A stretch of DNA of 53,901 nucleotides from a candidate division WOR-3 bacterium (lineage in GTDB: Bacteria > Hydrothermota > Tepidihabitantia > SM23-42 > JAOAFX01). Position 1 is the first letter of the stretch, and each line of letters begins with the position of its first letter. Shown in pieces: positions 1-48,016 of this stretch. The notes under the pieces were generated by a model that did not search any database, was not told the DNA's origin, and saw nothing but the letters and a program-made list of their open reading frames with translations. The DNA is taken from positions 1 to 53,901 of the forward strand of contig JBDRWD010000013.1 in assembly GCA_039802205.1 (NCBI GenBank), written 5' to 3'. The translations under genes and the position numbers were made by a program.

Positions 1-904
1 TATTATCAAATATCAATTTGGGCTCACCATTGTCCATAACCACGGCCTGGGTCCAGAAGACCAAATTGGAATCAAAGGGCTCGGGCCAGACCATATTGTA
101 AACCTGCTCTGATGACCAGTTTATGCCATCGGTTGTCGTGCGGTAGTAGATATTCAAGAGTGTATCATAGTAAAAGACATAGGCAATACCATTATTAATA
201 TCAAATCCCCAGTATCTACGATAATCAGGATTGATATAACCACCAGCCAGCTGGGTCGTGAGATTGCAATTATAGGTGCGATAGATAATTTTTCTATCAT
301 CAGAATAGTTTTCTATAGTAACCGCAATAAATAATATGTTTCCATTCGGAAATTGCTTACCGATATTCCACCAGGCTTTATTTATTCCTGGTCCGAGGTC
401 AACCGGTGGATCCCAATATGAAGACCACCGACCACCAGTTTCAAATATTCCTACCATTCTGGAATATGTTAGATAACCACAAGAAAGAGAGACATGAGGT
501 CCAGAACCTGCAATATCAAAACCTGAGGCAATGGCAGATGGATATATAAACCCACCAAATTGACCTGTGTATACGCCGATATCAGTTAATGAAAAAGAAA
601 AGAGGTTATCTGTTTGGGAAACATTCAAATATAAGCCGGTTCCAAATTCATGGCAAACAAATAATAGACTACCGACTAAAGCATTGTATGCCAGACATTC
701 ATGACTTTGTGTCCAAAGAGAGTAGGCGTAAACAGAGGAGTCAACAGGTGAAAAGGAATTTGAGTTAACTATCGGAGTGTGTGATAGATTGTAAGTTTTA
801 TGCTCTTGATTTAATAGCACTAGCTCAGGTGGATTAATAGGGATACTAATCGTCACTGCCCTACTAATTTGAATGAGAATAAGAAAGAAACAAATATTTC
901 TCAT
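1..904 (-). CDS. Partial exported protein with sialidase-like Asp-box (3' end outside window)
   Basis: An open frame of 301 codons runs off the left edge. It starts at ATG 902-904 behind a strong Shine-Dalgarno (AAGGAGGAG). The first 16 or so residues (MRNICFFLILIQISRA) form a Sec signal peptide, so the protein is exported. The body is rich in Tyr, Trp, Asn and Gly and looks like beta-sheet. Near residue 270 the string TTDDGINW fits the Asp-box (S/T-x-D-x-G-x-x-W) of sialidase-type beta-propellers. No catalytic residues can be assigned. It is divergent from the next gene. Function unknown; probably a surface or secreted beta-propeller protein. Confidence 0.7.
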   Translation of the reverse strand, partial: MRNICFFLILIQISRAVTISIPINPPELVLLNQEHKTYNLSHTPIVNSNSFSPVDSSVYAYSLWTQSHECLAYNALVGSLLFVCHEFGTGLYLNVSQTDNLFSFSLTDIGVYTGQFGGFIYPSAIASGFDIAGSGPHVSLSCGYLTYSRMVGIFETGGRWSSYWDPPVDLGPGINKAWWNIGKQFPNGNILFIAVTIENYSDDRKIIYRTYNCNLTTQLAGGYINPDYRRYWGFDINNGIAYVFYYDTLLNIYYRTTTDGINWSSEQVYNMVWPEPFDSNLVFWTQAVVMDNGEPKLIFDN

Positions 905-6292: not shown

Positions 6293-7558
6293 ATGATTAA
6301 GCGTTACGAGACCGAAGAGCTCAGAAAGATTTTTAGTGAAGAACATAAGATGGAGGTATGGGTCCAGGTTGAAAAAGCAGTTGCCGAGATCCAGGAAGAA
6401 CTCAGAGTAATCCCCAGGGGATTGAGTAAGAAATTGAGAGGGATAAAGATCGACCCAGAACGGGTTGCCGAGATAGAGAAGATCACTAATCACGATGTCA
6501 TTGCCTTTCTGGAAGCAGTGAGGGAAAAGATTGGGAAAGAGGGACGATGGGTCCATTTTGGTATGACTTCTTATGATCTGGTGGATACGGCGTGGGGTAT
6601 GATTTTAAAGGAGGCTTTAAAGGTCGTCCTTAAGGATGTTGGGAAGCTATTGCAGATTTTAAAACGCCTCGCATCAAAATACCGACGTACTCCGCAGATG
6701 GGGAGAACTCATGGTGTATTTGCCCAGCCGATTACTTTTGGATACAAAATAAAATCCTGGTATCAGGAAATTTTGCGGGCACAAAGCCGTCTCAAACAGG
6801 CTTTAAATGAGATCGCTTTTGGTAAACTCTCCGGTGCAGTGGGTGCTTATACAATCTTATCACCCGACATTGAAAAGAAGGTGATGAGAAGATTAGGGCT
6901 GAAGCCCGAGCCCGTTTCTACGCAGGTAATACCCCGTGATCGACACGCCTATTTGGTGGCGACCCTTGTTCTCTATGGATGTGCATTGGAAAGGATTGCT
7001 ACAGAGATTAGAAATCTTTCACGCTCCGAAATCGGTGAGGTATCAGAACCTTTTACCAAGGGCCAGAAAGGTTCTTCGGCAATGCCCCATAAGCAAAATC
7101 CCATCACTTGCGAACGGGTATGCGGGTTGGTGAAGGTATTGAGGGGCTATCTCATTCCGGCCCTGGAAAATATCAATCTTTGGCATGAACGGGATCTGAC
7201 TAATTCTTCAGGAGAACGGGTGATTATTCCCGATGCCTTTCATCTTGTCCATTATTGCACAAAAAAGATGATCTGGGTTTTAAAGAACTTGAAAGTTTTT
7301 CCAGAGAGGATGATGGAGAATATAACCAATAGTTTGGGTCTTTATGCCTCACAGAATTTGATGAATCGATTGATTGAGAAAGGAATGAGCCGGAAGGAAG
7401 CTTACGACCTCGTGCAGGCACTTTCTTTCTCGGCAATAGCGAATAAAAGGCATCTAAAGGACGTTGCCGGAGATAATGCGCGAGTGAAAAAATATCTTGA
7501 GGATGGGGAATTGAATAGGATTTTTGATCTGAACTGGTTTTTGAGAAATATTCTGTGA
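6293..7558 (+). CDS. purB: Adenylosuccinate lyase
   Basis: PurB splits adenylosuccinate to AMP and fumarate, and SAICAR to AICAR and fumarate, in purine synthesis. The 421-residue protein is near usual length. Seen: N-terminal RYETEELRKIFSEE, the VHFGMTSYDLVDTA block (about 83-96), RTHGVFAQP (about 139-147) with the catalytic His region, and the fumarase/aspartase signature GSSAMPHKQNP (about 261-271) carrying the mobile catalytic serine loop. No Shine-Dalgarno; a -10 box sits 9 nt before ATG. purQ lies 16 kb away, so purine genes are scattered. Confidence 0.95.
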   Translation: MIKRYETEELRKIFSEEHKMEVWVQVEKAVAEIQEELRVIPRGLSKKLRGIKIDPERVAEIEKITNHDVIAFLEAVREKIGKEGRWVHFGMTSYDLVDTAWGMILKEALKVVLKDVGKLLQILKRLASKYRRTPQMGRTHGVFAQPITFGYKIKSWYQEILRAQSRLKQALNEIAFGKLSGAVGAYTILSPDIEKKVMRRLGLKPEPVSTQVIPRDRHAYLVATLVLYGCALERIATEIRNLSRSEIGEVSEPFTKGQKGSSAMPHKQNPITCERVCGLVKVLRGYLIPALENINLWHERDLTNSSGERVIIPDAFHLVHYCTKKMIWVLKNLKVFPERMMENITNSLGLYASQNLMNRLIEKGMSRKEAYDLVQALSFSAIANKRHLKDVAGDNARVKKYLEDGELNRIFDLNWFLRNIL

Positions 7559-7560
7559 TA

Positions 7561-7588
7561 TTGACTTTAAAAATAATTTAATTATAAT
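7561..7588 (+). promoter_or_regulatory. Leaderless-type promoter of spt
   Basis: TTGACT (7561-7566), 16 nt, TATAAT (7583-7588), then 6 nt (CGAAAA) to the ATG at 7595. Confidence 0.7.
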
Positions 7589-7594
7589 CGAAAA

Positions 7595-8782
7595 ATGGAT
7601 ATCTTTAAGAAATGCCAGGCAACGGTTAAGGCGGTAGAAAGGGCAAAAGATATCAATATTTATCCTTATTTTACACCGATAGAATCTGCTCAAGACCATC
7701 GGGTGATTATAAACGGCCGCGAGTATATAATGATTGGTTCCAATGGCTATTTAGGTCTGGCAGCAGATGAAAGATTAAAAAAGGCGGCGATTGAGGCGGT
7801 GCAAAAATATGGTTCCACCTGCTCTGGTTCGAGATTTTTGAATGGCACCCTTGATATCCATGTTCGACTGGAGAGAGAACTCGCGGAGTTTTTTGAAAAA
7901 GACGAGGCAATCGTATTTTCAACTGGTTTTCAAACAAATCTGGGAATAATCTCGGCGCTTGCGGGCAAAGATGATGTCGTAATCATCGACCGGCAAGACC
8001 ATGCTTCAATAATCGACGGTTGCCGACTCTCTTTTGCAGAAATAAAGAAATTCAAACACAATGATATGGGAGATTTGGAACGGATACTGAAATCAATACC
8101 CCACAATAAAGGCAAGTTGATTGTGGTGGATGGTGTCTTCAGTATGGAGGGGGATGTAATTAATCTGCCGGAAGTTGTTAGATTGAAGGAAAAATACAAC
8201 GCCCGATTGCTCGTTGATGACGCCCATGGCATTGGTGTTTTAGGGAAAAGGGGGCGGGGTGTTTGTGAGCATTTTGATTTGTTGAACAAGGTGGATATTA
8301 TAATGGGAACTTTTAGTAAGTCCTTCGCTTCGCTGGGTGGTTTTGTAGTTGCCGAAAAGGATGTGATCACGCATATCCGCCATACCGCCCGGGCCCTGAT
8401 TTTTTCGGCGAGTATGACACCGGCTTCTGTGGCCAGCGCCTTAAAATCCTTAGAGATAATAAAAAGTGAACCAGAACGTCGGGAAAGACTCTGGAAGGTA
8501 ACAGAAAGGGTGCGGAAGGGATTCAAAGATATAGGCCTGGATACCGGAAATAGTACGACCCCGGTGATTCCGGTGATCATCGGGGAGGATGAAAAATGTT
8601 TTGCCTTTTGGAAAATGCTCTTTGATAATGGAGTATTTGCCAATCCGGTGATTTCTCCGGCAACACCACCGGGCCGAGCACTCATCCGGACGAGTTATAT
8701 GGCTACCCACACTGATGAAGATATTGATATTGTGCTTGATGTCTTTGCCCGCTGTGCCAAGGAGTTTGGTTTAGTAAAGTGA
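7595..8782 (+). CDS. spt: Serine palmitoyltransferase-like alpha-oxoamine synthase
   Basis: A PLP-dependent enzyme of the alpha-oxoamine synthase family (395 residues). Within the family it resembles Bacteroidetes serine palmitoyltransferase, which condenses serine with an acyl thioester to 3-keto-sphinganine. Features: YPYFTPIES near residue 25, MIGSNGYLGL, SGSRFLNGTLDIHVRLE (about 76-92), DHASIIDG, KHNDMGDLE, VDGVFSMEGD, VDDAHGIGVLG, and the PLP-lysine block GTFSKSFASLGGF. GTFSKS is typical of SPT; KBL and AONS usually have GTLGKA. The stop overlaps the next gene (GTGA), so the two are translationally coupled. 8-Amino-7-oxononanoate synthase is the main alternative, but no biotin genes are near. 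Confidence 0.82.
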   Translation: MDIFKKCQATVKAVERAKDINIYPYFTPIESAQDHRVIINGREYIMIGSNGYLGLAADERLKKAAIEAVQKYGSTCSGSRFLNGTLDIHVRLERELAEFFEKDEAIVFSTGFQTNLGIISALAGKDDVVIIDRQDHASIIDGCRLSFAEIKKFKHNDMGDLERILKSIPHNKGKLIVVDGVFSMEGDVINLPEVVRLKEKYNARLLVDDAHGIGVLGKRGRGVCEHFDLLNKVDIIMGTFSKSFASLGGFVVAEKDVITHIRHTARALIFSASMTPASVASALKSLEIIKSEPERRERLWKVTERVRKGFKDIGLDTGNSTTPVIPVIIGEDEKCFAFWKMLFDNGVFANPVISPATPPGRALIRTSYMATHTDEDIDIVLDVFARCAKEFGLVK

Positions 8783-9894
8783 TAAGGATTACGCCGGTAA
8801 AAGATGAGAAAGAGTTAAAAACATTTATTGAACTACCCTATCGGCTATACAGAAATAATCGCTACTGGGTTCCCCCCTTACGACGGGATGTCTACAACCT
8901 TTTTGATCGAAAGAAATACCCCTTTTGGGAACATGCGGAACGAGAGATGTATCTTGCTTATCGTAATAAAGAAGTAGTTGGGCGGGTTTGTGCAATCGTC
9001 GACTATAATTTTATTGAATTCTGGAACGAAAAGACGGGCTATTTCGGTTTTTTTGAGTGTGAGGACGATGGAGAGGCGGCAATTGCTCTATTCGATGCGG
9101 TGCGGAGATATCACAAAGAAAAAGGAATGACCAAATTTGTGGGACCATTTAATCCCTCCACGAACGAAGAAGTTGGTTTTCTTCTTGAGGGTTATTTTCT
9201 GGAACCGATGATTATGATGACCTACACCTTTGAATATTATCATAAACTTGCTGCTGCCAGCGGTCTAACCAAAGCAAAGGATTTATACGCCTTCTATATT
9301 GAAACAAAAAATGCTCCATTAGAATATTTGGAGCGATTGTGTTCTACAATTCGCCTAAGGGTGCGGGATTTAAAGGTGCGCCATGTGGACCTTAATGACT
9401 TCGCTAATGAAGTAAAAAAGATAAAAGAAGTATATAACAATGCCTGGAGCCGGAATTGGGGATTTGTGCCTATGACCGATGCGGAGTTTAATCATATTGC
9501 CAAAACATTGAAAGACCTAGTCGTGCCCGAACTGGTGATAATCGTGGAAATTGATAATGTTCCAGTGGGAGTTTCGTTGGCGGTACCAAATTATAATTTT
9601 GTTTTGAAAAAGTTAAATGGCAAATTAAACTTTATCAGCATTCTGAAATTTTTATACTACAAGAATAAAATAAAAGAAGCCCGGCTGATGATCATGGGTG
9701 TGAAGCATGAATATCAAAAATTGGGACTTGAAGCATTGATGTTTCTGGAGACTTTTAAAGCTGGTATGAAGCTGGGTTATCACAGCGGTGAGTTGAGCTG
9801 GACCCTTGAAGATAATCATCCGGTGAACAACACAATAATAAAAATGGGGGGAAGGTTATACAAAAAATACCGCATTTATCAGGGGCAGGTTTAA
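8779..9894 (+). CDS. GNAT-fold N-acyltransferase (YghO / bacterial ceramide synthase-like)
   Basis: A 371-residue GNAT-superfamily protein starting at GTG inside the spt stop (GTGA overlap). The N-terminal block FIELPYRLYRNNRYWVPPLRRD, then KKYPFWEHAE, GPFNPSTNEEVGFLLEGY, YNNAWSRNWGFVPMTDAEF and the C-terminal SWTLEDNHPVNNTIIKMGG with YKKYRIY are characteristic of the YghO-like family. From memory, a Caulobacter member is the reported bacterial ceramide synthase, which N-acylates the sphingoid base. Coupling to spt supports a ceramide-forming step. Substrate assignment is inference; membrane anchoring is not evident. Confidence 0.72.
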   Translation: MIRITPVKDEKELKTFIELPYRLYRNNRYWVPPLRRDVYNLFDRKKYPFWEHAEREMYLAYRNKEVVGRVCAIVDYNFIEFWNEKTGYFGFFECEDDGEAAIALFDAVRRYHKEKGMTKFVGPFNPSTNEEVGFLLEGYFLEPMIMMTYTFEYYHKLAAASGLTKAKDLYAFYIETKNAPLEYLERLCSTIRLRVRDLKVRHVDLNDFANEVKKIKEVYNNAWSRNWGFVPMTDAEFNHIAKTLKDLVVPELVIIVEIDNVPVGVSLAVPNYNFVLKKLNGKLNFISILKFLYYKNKIKEARLMIMGVKHEYQKLGLEALMFLETFKAGMKLGYHSGELSWTLEDNHPVNNTIIKMGGRLYKKYRIYQGQV

Positions 9895-9907
9895 AAATTA
9901 CTTTCCC

Positions 9908-9935
9908 TTGACAGAATTATATTTTGGCATATAAT
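9908..9935 (+). promoter_or_regulatory. Promoter of the GYD-thiC-chemoreceptor-regulator operon
   Basis: TTGACA (9908-9913), 16 nt, TATAAT (9930-9935). The gene starts at 9957 with Shine-Dalgarno GAGGAGGT, so the leader is only about 15 nt. That is far too short to hold a TPP riboswitch. Confidence 0.7.
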
Positions 9936-9956
9936 CTGATTTATGAGGAGGTATAA

Positions 9957-10205
9957 ATGACCTTCATCACTACGCTGGATGTCATCCCCGGTCGTGCTGA
10001 TGAGATGCTGAAGGCAGTTAAAGAGTTGAAGATTCCTGAAGGCATAAAGATAAGGGAGTTTTTGTCGCTGTTTGGCAAACCCGATTATATTTTGATTTTT
10101 GAGGCAGCTGATGAGGAAAAGGCAATGAATTTTATTTTGAAGTTTGTCGCCTATGCAGTACCCAAGACTTCGCTTGGGGTGAATGTGGAGTATGCCCATG
10201 AGTGA
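9957..10205 (+). CDS. GYD-like small alpha/beta-barrel protein
   Basis: An 82-residue protein starting MTFITTLDVIPGRADEMLKAVK and ending in a TSLGVNVEY strand. The pattern beta-alpha-beta-beta-alpha-beta with PDYILIFEAADEEKAMNFI fits GYD/dimeric ferredoxin-like domains, which usually bind small ligands or regulate neighbours. It has a strong Shine-Dalgarno and overlaps thiC by 8 nt. A ligand-sensing or thiamine-related role is suggested only by context. Confidence 0.7.
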   Translation: MTFITTLDVIPGRADEMLKAVKELKIPEGIKIREFLSLFGKPDYILIFEAADEEKAMNFILKFVAYAVPKTSLGVNVEYAHE

Positions 10206-11448
10206 TTTGGTTACCAAGCTTGCCCGGGAAGAAGGAATAAAACCTGAAATTTTGAAAAAAAATTTGAAGGAGGGCACAGCGGTAATAATCAAAAGCCGAT
10301 TGCACCGTATCAAACCCTTAGTCCTAGGCAAAGGATGCCGGACCAAAATCAATGCCAATATTGGAACCTCGCCCGATTTTGTCAATTTAAAATATGAATT
10401 AAAAAAATTGAAAGTTGCTGTGGAATATGGGGCAGATGCGGTGATGGATCTCTCAACCGGAGGAGATGTAGATCGGATACGCCGCGAGATTGTGCAGGCT
10501 TCTCCGGTCGCAGTTGGAACTGTTCCAATCTATCAGGTAGCGTTAGATATGCGGAAAAAGAAAAAATCGTTTGTTCAGGCAAGTGTTGATCAGATATTTG
10601 AGACGATTGAAAAGCATCTGGAAGACGGTGTTGATTTCATAACCGTCCATTGCGGCGTGACCTGGGAGACAATCCGGGGAATGGAACGAAAAAAGCGCAT
10701 CTGTGGTGTGGTGAGTCGCGGTGGCTCAATGATGATTGAGTGGATGAAGGCAAATAAAAAAGAAAACCCCCTCTATGAACATTATGACCGGCTTCTTAAA
10801 CTTGCTCAAAAATATTCCATAACTTTGAGTTTAGGTGATGGTCTGCGGCCGGGTTCAATAAGTGATGCGACCGATGAATATCAAATCCGAGAGCTGGTCA
10901 TAATTGGGGAACTGGTGCAAGAGGCATGGCGGTATGGAGTATCAGTGATTGTTGAGGGTCCGGGCCATATTCCGATTAATGAGATTGAGGCGAATGTCAA
11001 ATTACAGAAAAGAATCTGTCATGGAGCACCATTTTATGTGTTGGGTCCGTTGGTCACAGATATCGGTGCCGGGTATGACCATATCGTAGCCGCAATTGGT
11101 GGTGCACTTGCCGGATATTATGGGGCGGATTTTTTGTGTTATGTGACACCTTCCGAGCATTTGGGTTTACCTACTGTGGAAGATGTAAAAGAAGGTGTGA
11201 TTGCGCTAAAGATTGCAGCCCACGCCGCCGATATCGGCAAGGGGCTGGGTTTGGCAAGAATGCAAGATTTTAAGGTCTCACAAGCACGTTTTGCACTTGA
11301 TTGGGAGGCGATGTTGAGTCAGCTGATCGACCCTGAGAAGGCACGAACAATCTTCAAACGTAAACACTCCCGCTCAGCGGCTACCTGCACGATGTGTGGT
11401 GAATTCTGCGCGATGAAAAAAAGCCGCGAGATTTTCTGGAGGTCATAA
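10198..11448 (+). CDS. thiC: Phosphomethylpyrimidine synthase ThiC
   Basis: ThiC converts aminoimidazole ribotide to hydroxymethylpyrimidine phosphate (thiamine pyrimidine) by non-canonical radical SAM chemistry. The C-terminal cluster motif [10 protein letters not shown] (CX2CX4C) is present, with [61 protein letters not shown] and [12 protein letters not shown] along the barrel. In-frame ATGs lie at 10183, 10192 and 10198; GGAG at 10187-10190 is spaced correctly only for 10198, giving 416 residues ([14 protein letters not shown]). It overlaps the GYD gene and is followed directly by the chemoreceptor gene. The short radical-SAM C terminus resembles ThiC of anaerobes. BzaF-type benzimidazole synthesis is an unlikely alternative. 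Confidence 0.94.
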
Positions 11449-15508: not shown

Positions 15509-16495
15509 TTATTCATTCTTCAACGGTCTGAGCATTAAGCTCTTCAGACATTTTAAAGGTGCTCGGTTTTTATACAAAATTTCAAATACTACTTTGGATA
15601 TGGGCATCTCTACTTCGTATTTTCTTGCCAGTTTCATTACTGCCCGAACTGTAGGGATGCCTTCGGCCACCATTACCAATTTCTTTTTTATTTCTTTTAA
15701 TTTATGTCCTTGCCCGAGCAGTTTGCCTACGGTATGATTTCGTGATTCTTCGCTGAATGAGGTGGTGATAAGGTCACCCAGCCCGGACAACCCATAAAAG
15801 GTCTGTGGCTGGGCACCCATTTTAACACCCAATCTTTGTATCTCCACAATACCCCGGGTGATTAAGGCACCTTTGGCATTGGCTCCAAATCCCAACCCAT
15901 CGCTGATACCGCAGGCGATGGCAATCACATTCTTAAGGGCTCCACCGAGTTCCACCCCGCGCATATCACTACCGAGATAAATCCGAAAACTTTCGGTGGC
16001 GAGTTCCGATTGTAATTGCCTTGCTTTTTCTTGATCCTCACCGGCGAGAACCACCGCTGTTGGTTCTTTACGGATTATTTCGTTGGCAATTGATGGACCG
16101 GAGAGGACAAAACATCTTTTGTGCGGGAATATACTCTGAATGAGTTCTGAAGGAAGTTTTAGAGTTTTAAGATCAATTCCCTTTATCAGACTCAACAATT
16201 CTCGAGTGGGAAATTTTAATTTTTTCATTTCGTGGAGAACGGTATTCAGAGTCTGGCAGGGGACTGCAAATACGATAAGTTCTGAATCCCGTAACACATT
16301 TTCCAGACGCCAGTCCACCCAGATTGCCTTGGGTATTTTATAATACTTGAGGAAGGGGCGATTATCCCGTGTTCTTTGTACATACTCAGCCCTTTTTTTG
16401 TTAAATTCCCAGATCTTTATCCGATGACCTTTCTGATGCTGGATAATACCAAAAACTGAACCCCAGTTACCGCAGCCGAGGATGGCAAGATTCAT
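15509..16495 (-). CDS. gpsA: Glycerol-3-phosphate dehydrogenase [NAD(P)+]
   Basis: GpsA reduces dihydroxyacetone phosphate to sn-glycerol-3-phosphate, the backbone of bacterial phospholipids. The 328-residue protein has the Rossmann motif AILGCGNWGSVFG at the N terminus, LIVFAVPCQ, LSLIKGID, VLSGPSIANEI (about 130-140), the catalytic-lysine block ELGGALKNVIAIACGISDGLGFGANAKGALITRG (landmark only, about 187-220) and GLSGLGDLITT. ATG overlaps the plsY stop by 4 nt, so G3P synthesis and its first acylation are co-expressed. Its presence beside a G1P dehydrogenase in the same genome is notable. Confidence 0.95.
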   Translation of the reverse strand: MNLAILGCGNWGSVFGIIQHQKGHRIKIWEFNKKRAEYVQRTRDNRPFLKYYKIPKAIWVDWRLENVLRDSELIVFAVPCQTLNTVLHEMKKLKFPTRELLSLIKGIDLKTLKLPSELIQSIFPHKRCFVLSGPSIANEIIRKEPTAVVLAGEDQEKARQLQSELATESFRIYLGSDMRGVELGGALKNVIAIACGISDGLGFGANAKGALITRGIVEIQRLGVKMGAQPQTFYGLSGLGDLITTSFSEESRNHTVGKLLGQGHKLKEIKKKLVMVAEGIPTVRAVMKLARKYEVEMPISKVVFEILYKNRAPLKCLKSLMLRPLKNE

Positions 16496-17088
16496 TTTTT
16501 CTCCCAGAAAATCGTTCGCGGTTCGGTGCGGTTGATGATTCTTTTGATGTTGGCACGGTGGGCGAAGATGATTAGTAGACTCACAGTTGCAATCAAAAGT
16601 TTTTCACCTGCCGATACCGAACTGAAAAAGATGGTGGTAATCAAAAGAACGATGGCCAGACTTAGCGATGCGATTGAGACGATATAACTCGCCAGATAAA
16701 CGATAAGCCAGACGCTAATGGAAAGGAGAAAGGGGATAGGAACGATGCCCAGTGTCACCCCCAGGGTTGTGGAAACACCTTTACCCCCCTTGAATTTAAA
16801 AAATGGATTGAAGATGTGCCCCATTATTGCTCCTGCCCCGCATAATGCCGGAGAGAGGGTAAGGTGTTGTCCAAGCATGACAGGCAAAAACCCCTTGAGT
16901 CCATCGAGCAAAAACCCAAAGATAAAAAATCGAAGACCGAGTGCCCTTCCCAGATTTGTCGCTCCGATATTACCACTACCTATTTTTTTAATATCCACCC
17001 CCTTGAGTCTGCCCAAGAGGTAGGAGAAGGGAATTAATCCCCAGATAAAACCGAAAAAGAAGGAGCCAAACAGATTGAGCATCAACAT
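16492..17088 (-). CDS. plsY: Glycerol-3-phosphate acyltransferase PlsY
   Basis: PlsY transfers an acyl group from acyl-phosphate to glycerol-3-phosphate, the first step of phosphatidic acid synthesis in the inner membrane. The 198-residue protein has five or so membrane segments. Its conserved cytoplasmic loops are GSGNIGATNLGRALG (about 37-51), GHIFNPFFKFKGGKGVSTTLG (landmark, about 89-110) and HRANIKRIINRTEP near the C terminus. It overlaps gpsA downstream and der upstream. The acyl-phosphate source PlsX is not in the window. Confidence 0.95.
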   Translation of the reverse strand: MLMLNLFGSFFFGFIWGLIPFSYLLGRLKGVDIKKIGSGNIGATNLGRALGLRFFIFGFLLDGLKGFLPVMLGQHLTLSPALCGAGAIMGHIFNPFFKFKGGKGVSTTLGVTLGIVPIPFLLSISVWLIVYLASYIVSIASLSLAIVLLITTIFFSSVSAGEKLLIATVSLLIIFAHRANIKRIINRTEPRTIFWEKK

Positions 17089-36664: not shown

Positions 36665-37912
36665 ATGGCATTCAGCGATCGGGTGCGCGAATTTTTTGCT
36701 AACGAACTCAAGGCGATAAAAGAAAAAGGTCTTTTCAAGGAAGAACGTTTCATAGCTTCACCGCAATCAGCAGTGATCAAGGTGGAATATCCAGCAGGTT
36801 CACCACCAAGGGAGGTGATTAATTTCTGTGCCAATAATTATCTGGGTTTATCCAGCCATCCTGAAGTCATCAAGGCAGCACATGAAGGGTTGGAAAACCG
36901 CGGTTACGGCATGTCCTCGGTTCGTTTTATCTGTGGCACCCAGGATATTCATAAAGAATTGGAAAGGAAACTTACTGAATTTTTAGGCACTGAAGATACA
37001 GTGCTTTTCCCTTCGTGCATGGATGCCAATGCCGGGGTTTTTGATGTTGTTTTAGACCAGCAGGATGCGATGATCGCCGATCGCTTGGTCCATGCCTCAA
37101 TCGTTGATGGGATGAAATTATGTAAAGCACAGACCTACAATTATAAACACCTCAATATGGCGCATTTAGAAGAAAAACTCCAGGAGACCCAGAATTGTCG
37201 TTTCCGGATGATCATCACCGATGGGGTTTTCTCCATGGATGGCGACATTGCACCCTTGGATAAAATCTGTGAATTGGCAGAAAAGTATGATGCAATGGTG
37301 ATGGTGGATGATTCCCACGCCACCGGATTTCTGGGCAAAAATGGGCGGGGAACCCATGAATACTGCGGGGTGATGGGTAAAATTGATATCATCACAACCA
37401 CCCTTGGCAAGGCAATGGGCGGGGCAAGTGGTGGATGTGTAAGTGGTCGCAAAGAGATTGTGGAACTCTGCAGGCAGCGGGCACGCCCATATCTCTTTTC
37501 GAATACCATTCCGCCGGTGGTAGTGGCTGCAGCAAATAAAGTGATGGATATCATCGGTACTACCACCGCCTTGCGGGATAAACTCGAAGAAAACACTAAG
37601 TATTTTCGTCAGAAGATAAAGGAAGCTGGGTTCGACATTAAAGAAGGTGTACACCCGATTGTCCCAATCATGCTTTACAACGCCAAACTTGCTCAAGATA
37701 TGGCGCGGGATTTATATGATGAAGGAATCTATGTGATCGGCTTTTCTTATCCAGTTGTTCCCCAAGGACAGGCGCGTATCCGCGTTCAGATTTCGGCGAT
37801 CCATGAAAAGGAGCATCTGGATAAAGCGATAGAAGCATTCAAAAAAGTGGGTGCTAAATACAATATCCTTGGCAAGAAAAAAGATGAGATAATCGCTATG
37901 TATGGGTTATAA
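36665..37912 (+). CDS. kbl: 2-amino-3-ketobutyrate CoA ligase (glycine C-acetyltransferase)
   Basis: Kbl cleaves 2-amino-3-ketobutyrate with CoA to glycine and acetyl-CoA. The 415-residue PLP enzyme closely follows E. coli Kbl: GLFKEER, INFCANNYLGL, MSSVRFICGTQDIHKELE (about 80-97), DGVFSMDGDIAPL, VDDSHATGFLG, and the PLP-lysine block TTTLGKAMGGASGG (about 245-258), then RPYLFSNTIPP. Compared with the spt enzyme at 7595, it has the GTLGKA-type signature and an extra N-terminal stretch. With tdh in the same operon the main role is threonine catabolism; use of acyl-ACP is possible because of the ACP gene just upstream. It has a strong AAAGGAGG. Confidence 0.93.
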   Translation: MAFSDRVREFFANELKAIKEKGLFKEERFIASPQSAVIKVEYPAGSPPREVINFCANNYLGLSSHPEVIKAAHEGLENRGYGMSSVRFICGTQDIHKELERKLTEFLGTEDTVLFPSCMDANAGVFDVVLDQQDAMIADRLVHASIVDGMKLCKAQTYNYKHLNMAHLEEKLQETQNCRFRMIITDGVFSMDGDIAPLDKICELAEKYDAMVMVDDSHATGFLGKNGRGTHEYCGVMGKIDIITTTLGKAMGGASGGCVSGRKEIVELCRQRARPYLFSNTIPPVVVAAANKVMDIIGTTTALRDKLEENTKYFRQKIKEAGFDIKEGVHPIVPIMLYNAKLAQDMARDLYDEGIYVIGFSYPVVPQGQARIRVQISAIHEKEHLDKAIEAFKKVGAKYNILGKKKDEIIAMYGL

Positions 37913-46764: not shown

Positions 46765-47982
46765 TTAACCCCGGTATTGTTTTAAGGCAACGCCAAGTGC
46801 GGTGATGGCAGCTCGGATGTCTTCTTCTTTTAACACATAAGCAATTCTTATTTGATCCTTACCTTTTTTAAGTGTGGAATAAAAGCCATTTGCCGGAGCA
46901 AGCATTACCGTTGCATTCTGATGATTAAAATCAGTCAATAACCACTGGCAGAAATGGTCGGCGTTTTTTACCGGTAAACTCAAGACCGTGTAAAAAGCAC
47001 CTTCTGGTTTATGCCCATAGACATTGGGAATTTCTTTTAAGCATTCAAATAAGACATTCCGACGGTGCTCATACTCTTTAATCATGGGGGTGATATATTT
47101 GTCGATATACTTGTAAGCCGCTACCGCACCAATCTGTTCAAGGGTTGGTGGGCATAACCGCGCTTGGCAGAATCGGAGTAGTGCATCCATTACTTTTTTA
47201 TTTCGGCTGATTATACAACCAACCCGAGCACCACAGGCGGAAAATCTTTTGGAGATGGAATCCATTAATATTACCCGGTCTTCAATCTCTGGTAAAGATA
47301 GTGCACTTATGTGTTGCTTACCATCATAGATGAATTCCCGATAGACTTCATCAGAGAGGAGAAAAAGATTGTGTCTTTTACATAGCCGCTGGAGGATGAA
47401 CATTTCTTCTTCGGTCAAAACTGTGCCCGTTGGATTGTTGGGGGTGTTAATAAGAATTGCTCGGGTTCGGGAACTGATTTTCTTTTTGATTTCTGATTCG
47501 GGAGGAAGGTGAAAACCGTTCTCAATTTTGGTTTCGATTGCGACGAGTTTGATATTAGACATCACCGCAAAGCCGTTATAATTGGTATAGTAGGGTTCAA
47601 AAACAATTATTTCATCTCCAGGGTCACATACGGTCATCATGGCAAATACTATCGCTTCACTCCCACCTATTGTTATCCAGATGTTATCCAGATCCAGATC
47701 AAAGCCCAGATTCCGGTAATAATCAAGAACCGCAAGGCGTAAGTCTAAGATCCCCCCAGATGGACCATAGCCGAGGACTTTTTCTCGGTAATTGCCGATT
47801 GCCTCGAAAATTTCAATGGGTGTCTCAATATCTGGTTGACCAATATTTAGATGGTAAACCTTTAAACCCTTTTTCTTCGCTTCATCTGCAAATGCGGATA
47901 ACTTGCGAATAGGCGAATAAGGCATACGCTCGGCCCTTGCCGATAAAGAGATATCTCTTTTTATGCTTTTTGTGCGCGCCAT
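46765..47982 (-). CDS. Class I PLP-dependent aminotransferase (AspB-like)
   Basis: A 405-residue fold-type I aminotransferase. LNIGQPDIETP, YGPSGGILDLR, ITIGGSEAIVFAMMTVCDPGDEIIV, NTPNNPTGTVL, LLSDEVYREFIYDG and the PLP-lysine site DSISKRFSACGARVG (about 236-250) are all present, with IRIAYVL at the end carrying the carboxylate-binding Arg. Aspartate aminotransferase or an aromatic/alanine-type enzyme cannot be separated by eye. The promoter is leaderless and has a palindrome in its spacer. It may be the first gene of the minus-strand operon (14 nt to the next gene). Confidence 0.9.
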   Translation of the reverse strand: MARTKSIKRDISLSARAERMPYSPIRKLSAFADEAKKKGLKVYHLNIGQPDIETPIEIFEAIGNYREKVLGYGPSGGILDLRLAVLDYYRNLGFDLDLDNIWITIGGSEAIVFAMMTVCDPGDEIIVFEPYYTNYNGFAVMSNIKLVAIETKIENGFHLPPESEIKKKISSRTRAILINTPNNPTGTVLTEEEMFILQRLCKRHNLFLLSDEVYREFIYDGKQHISALSLPEIEDRVILMDSISKRFSACGARVGCIISRNKKVMDALLRFCQARLCPPTLEQIGAVAAYKYIDKYITPMIKEYEHRRNVLFECLKEIPNVYGHKPEGAFYTVLSLPVKNADHFCQWLLTDFNHQNATVMLAPANGFYSTLKKGKDQIRIAYVLKEEDIRAAITALGVALKQYRG

Positions 47983-47988
47983 GATTAA

Positions 47989-48016
47989 ATTATATCCAAC
48001 CGCGGTTAAAAGTCAA
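47989..48016 (-). promoter_or_regulatory. Leaderless-type promoter with operator-like palindrome before the aminotransferase gene
   Basis: On the minus strand TTGACT (48011-48016), 16 nt, TATAAT (47989-47994), then 6 nt to ATG 47982. The spacer contains a perfect 10-bp palindrome AACCGCGGTT (47998-48007), where a repressor or MerR-type activator could bind. Confidence 0.65.

Follow-up and report, generated by a model that had tools for sequence, protein, structure and literature searches.

An overlapping serine palmitoyltransferase and ceramide synthase-type GNAT gene pair, a probable sphingolipid-backbone operon in a candidate division WOR-3 bacterium

Sphingolipids were long believed to be rare in bacteria. 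The Spt-bCerS-CerR pathway is established (PMC11087976, PMC9386255), and all three enzyme families of the Caulobacter (CC_1162, CC_1154 and CC_1164) and Escherichia coli BL21 pathway are also found in the WOR-3 genome considered here. CC_1154, which encodes the ceramide N-acyltransferase of Caulobacter, has YghO of E. coli as its listed counterpart (PMC9386255), and in E. coli BL21 yghO is placed beside, and divergent from, a run of genes comprising aasR, cerR, acpR and spt. This agrees with a published statement that cerS is "always" in an operon other than that of spt. According to a Black Sea survey (PMC11334938), Spt-like genes occur in 38 phyla; this survey treats the same gene set by the same kind of genome-based inference as used here, and neither WOR-3 nor Stahlbacteria is named in its main text. 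A literature search found no paper combining "WOR-3" with "sphingolipid".

The window, by which we mean the whole stretch of DNA that was analysed (53,901 nucleotides), makes up contig C13 of a genome of 2.65 Mb, which is assembled in 95 contigs and 96% complete. The features around the gene pair are as follows.

7561..7588, + strand: sigma-70-type promoter, TTGACT-16-TATAAT, ending 6 nt before the spt ATG, a predicted leaderless-type geometry
7595..8782, + strand: spt, serine palmitoyltransferase of 395 aa, ATG start (assigned by family models, phmmer, tree and alignment)
8779..8782, + strand: GTGA overlap of the GNAT gene start and the spt stop (read from the sequence; overlaps are conserved in relatives)
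8779..9894, + strand: predicted bCerS/YghO-type tandem-GNAT N-acyltransferase of 371 aa, GTG start (assigned by YghO homology and fold)
9908..9935, + strand: consensus promoter of the next gene, TTGACA-16-TATAAT, following the GNAT gene

An earlier note on this DNA had described the GTG start of the YghO-type gene as overlapping the spt stop, and the sequence bears this out: spt ends with tttagtaaaGTGAtaagg, in which the final base of a lysine codon and the TGA stop together form GTGA, an overlap of 4 nt. By contrast with E. coli BL21, spt and bcerS form a single overlapping unit to which cerR is not linked, and this tight spt-bcerS operon contradicts the published "always". Of the named relatives found, a Candidatus Stahlbacteria MAG (L076) is the nearest, with identities of 63% for the GNAT protein and 76% for Spt, so that the organism probably belongs to the WOR-3/Stahliibacteriota group.

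The pair is not peculiar to this contig. Among 61 genomes searched, Spt was found in 55 and the GNAT in 58, and in 52 of the 55 related genomes having spt the two genes are adjacent and co-directional with a gap of less than 150 nt, so that the overlap is not a matter of chance. Of the three exceptions, two stem from the assembly or the alignment, as in G008 spt is split by a contig end (the remainder of the gene adjoins the GNAT gene in L016) and in G025 the spt alignment is partial; only in G055 are the two genes truly unlinked. Twenty-six junctions were read base by base, and 20 of them overlap, 16 by 4 nt (ATGA, GTGA or TTGA) and 4 by 1 nt (TAATG), the other 6 being short gaps. Spt lies within 6 kb of the GNAT in 42 of the 80 best named loci of a scan of the genome collection, with CerR also present in 30. 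Such loci range over Myxococcota, Elusimicrobiota, Zixibacteria, Thermodesulfobacteriota, Gemmatimonadota, Bacteroidota, Ignavibacteriota, Pseudomonadota and others, and Planctomycetota and Calditrichota have Spt near the GNAT without CerR. The arrangement is therefore general and not specific to the WOR-3 lineage. The clusters of Myxococcota, Elusimicrobiota, Zixibacteria, Thermodesulfobacteriota, Gemmatimonadota and Reichenbachiella have Spt beside the same GNAT, as in WOR-3, but in these six groups CerR adjoins the pair, whereas in the WOR-3 genome it is on another contig.

Two further arrangements were seen during these comparisons. In one genome two GNAT copies stand in tandem behind spt, the one next to it only 32% and the farther one 47% identical to the GNAT of the window (G043:C22:14956-18561). 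A plasmid of Streptomyces sp. NBC_01001 (L160:4769-9295) carries spt-like, GNAT, NAD-epimerase/SDR and condensation-domain genes with successive 4-nt overlaps, and this gene order suggests a pathway to a sphingoid-type product in an actinomycete.

The promoter ahead of spt is near consensus, and the same geometry was recognised by eye upstream of spt in 24 of the 26 related sequences read. There is no Shine-Dalgarno-like site ahead of the spt ATG. As the promoter ends six bases before the start codon, spt-bcerS is probably a leaderless two-gene operon, and since a second consensus promoter follows the GNAT gene, the unit probably consists of just these two genes; no terminator-like site was found in 7300-10300. 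Leaderless starts look common in this genome, because the pattern TTGAC-16..18-TATAAT-3..8-ATG has 156 sites in the 2.65 Mb and the reversed pattern has none. In the window, leaderless-type promoters were seen at 2118, 7561, 24451, 33263, 47980-48016 (- strand) and 49274, and about a dozen operon-first genes have a -10 box 5-9 nt before the start codon without a Shine-Dalgarno-like site. A literature search found no paper joining "leaderless" and "WOR-3".

The 395-aa protein very probably belongs to the serine palmitoyltransferases (SPTs) of the Bacteroidota/Sphingobacterium type and would use L-serine. Of the NCBIfam models, NF047600 (the CFB type of serine palmitoyltransferase) matches it best, with 567 bits, and in this it differs from the proteobacterial type of Spt. 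This score is below the curated equivalog cut-off of 640, and so are those of SPTs encoded beside bCerS and CerR in Myxococcus (516 bits), Desulfuromonadaceae (570), Gemmatimonadota (572) and Endomicrobiales (Endomicrobia; 541), Reichenbachiella of the Bacteroidota being above it with 677. As SPTs from complete clusters of other phyla miss it, the cut-off seems to be tuned to Bacteroidota. Among solved structures, the nearest are those of the Sphingobacterium-type SPT (phmmer 448 bits, 53% identity over 379 residues), and in the alignment to this enzyme the protein keeps Lys242 (PLP), His136 (stacking), and Asn50 and Arg365 (substrate), the roles of these active-site residues being taken from PMC9304779.

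Alpha-oxoamine synthases are all similar, and models of the BioF/Kbl family (410 bits), bioF (393) and glycine C-acetyltransferase (387 and 307) match the protein too, as does SerpalmtaseBetaP (427), so that one might take it for a BioF or Kbl, with the GNAT acting on something unrelated. We regard this as extremely improbable: in a tree of 55 proteins, built from 52 SPTs, BioF and Kbl of E. coli and the Kbl of the window, with ALAS and CqsA left out, the SPT rows are split from the three others with 98% SH-aLRT and the protein sits among relatives of its class. The tree, by which the Kbl/BioF assignment was rejected, has an internal control in the true Kbl at 36665-37912 of the same window (631 bits, cut-off 493), the presence of which itself speaks against this assignment, as do the conserved linkage of spt to bCerS and, in other phyla, to CerR. 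That the PLP enzyme is an SPT, as the earlier note had it, is consequently upheld by the tree, in which it does not group with BioF (the outcome named in the note as a refutation), and by the SPT model scoring 567 bits against 393 for bioF. A sulfonolipid synthase of the cysteate-using SulA/CFAT type, with the pair leading to capnine-type sulfonolipids, has in its favour that SulA and Spt have a common fold and a nearly identical active site (PMC9304779), the four catalytic residues above included. However, SulA has Lys281 where the protein of the window has Ala272, as in Spt, and phmmer gives 448 bits for Spt against 243 for a cysteate C-fatty acyltransferase chain (28eh); the SulA assignment was rejected on Ala272, which argues against cysteate only, and we consider it very unlikely. 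Alanine or glycine could also replace serine as the substrate, in which case the pair would lead to 1-deoxyceramides, compounds reported from anaerobic bacteria with Spt-like genes (PMC11334938). Sequence offers no sure test between serine and alanine, but the 53% identity to the solved Sphingobacterium serine enzyme and the retained catalytic residues make these other substrates unlikely.

For the second protein, of 371 aa, Pfam and NCBIfam gave no family above cut-off, and the family was settled by comparison with YghO and by the fold. The protein is 32% identical to E. coli YghO over its full length (370 columns, E=1e-66), and a 12-row alignment has about 60 invariant columns. In these comparisons proteins of E. 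coli BL21, Sphingomonas and Roseomonas stood in for those of Caulobacter, and the Sphingomonas and Roseomonas homologues fall in one homologous family with the protein in a tree without an outside root. The earlier note's YghO/bCerS-type assignment is thus confirmed as full-length family homology, and a place "inside the bCerS clade" is to be read as membership of one family. The predicted structure (pLDDT 95.4, pTM 0.91, from a 74-row alignment) has tandem GNATs as its best PDB matches (2wpw, E=1.5e-13, and 7q3a), so that the GNAT label is right and the protein is a tandem GNAT. Homology and linkage together predict that it N-acylates the sphingoid base.

The GNAT family also includes a second clade, 45-48% identical, which is located away from spt (loci L034, L035, L036, L085, L095, L103 and L109, and in Cloacimonadota L080, L089, L105 and L106); it is absent from this genome and provides an extra copy in several relatives. 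As these genes are not near spt, the family may hold other activities, and the neighbours of two of them (TldD/PmbA-like, HD, amidohydrolase and FTCD) gave no clue to the substrate. In family f4 of the same class, as many as three divergent bCerS-like GNAT genes lie in tandem arrays (loci including G042:C155 and G044:C258).

The earlier note had found the ketone reductase to be missing from the window and had proposed a search for a ceramide reductase. The absence holds, and the search, run on the genome, gave a CerR homologue on contig C71 (G000:C71:10425-11393), matched by CerR of E. coli BL21 with 27% identity over the full length (E=2e-17), so that the genome appears to have the whole Spt-bCerS-CerR triad. 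We built a CerR profile from 33 CerRs of other phyla encoded near bCerS, mostly with Spt too; against this profile, the rows of which had in part been gathered through their similarity to the candidate, the C71 protein scores 273 bits and a held-out E. coli CerR 218. In a tree the C71 protein is within the wider CerR group (96% SH-aLRT), although the branches inside this group are weak and it also takes in one long-branched SDR from the genome. Its gene is unlinked to spt and bcerS, being flanked by genes for a class-I tRNA synthetase and a PorV-like protein; clustering of the three genes is reported not to be universal among known producers (PMC11334938). This lack of linkage, together with G006, a genome 94% complete that has a CerR-like gene without Spt and bCerS, would also agree with another reductase, a KDSR-like classical SDR acting before acylation as in eukaryotes, and a KDSR (BT_0972) is reported in Bacteroides thetaiotaomicron (PMC11087976). 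Yet the C71 protein alone scores like a CerR among the SDRs of the genome tested, the best of nine others reaching 131 bits, and nearly all relatives have a similar full-length match, so that we give the KDSR-like enzyme a small but appreciable chance and retain the C71 protein as the candidate CerR. In family f4 of the same class, CerR-like SDR genes form tandem arrays, the largest with six or more genes (loci including G032:C82, G044:C334, G028:C8 and G038:C137).

Taken as a whole, it is quite likely that spt-bcerS is a sphingolipid-backbone operon with CerR encoded elsewhere. Spt would condense L-serine with a fatty acyl thioester to 3-ketosphinganine, the tandem GNAT of bCerS type would N-acylate this product, and the CerR-type extended SDR of contig C71 would reduce the 3-keto group to give dihydroceramide. 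The promoter at the spt start codon would drive a leaderless bicistronic mRNA, in which the 4-nt overlap probably couples translation of the GNAT gene to that of spt. The sphingolipid synthesis that the earlier note had read from the overlapping pair is in this way supported by the Spt tree, the GNAT family and the CerR homologue, the enzyme activities and the lipid itself being predictions from sequence.

Genes of other membrane lipids are also present. The window has an archaeal-type ether-lipid gene, encoding a G1P dehydrogenase-like protein (1025-2113, + strand; 291 bits, below the cut-off of 413), and bacterial GpsA and PlsY genes at 15509-17088. Elsewhere in the genome, archaeal-type ether-lipid genes (loci G000:C7:40526-41206 and G000:C12:16205-16867) encode a GGGP synthase (206 bits, cut-off 161.55) and a DGGGP-synthase-like UbiA. 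A "mixed membrane" has been proposed for the FCB group (PMC7852524), and we tentatively raise the possibility, itself rather doubtful, that one cell has three lipid backbones, namely bacterial ester lipids, archaeal-type G1P isoprenoid ether lipids and sphingolipids made via a leaderless coupled spt-bcerS.

Many other phyla are known to have this pathway, so that the WOR-3 pair is a solid extension of it and not a new system; the step forward is modest, since Spt-like genes in 38 phyla are already on record in the Black Sea survey (PMC11334938). As the Spt-bCerS-CerR set is conserved through a class of uncultured bacteria, the members of this class become predicted sphingolipid producers.
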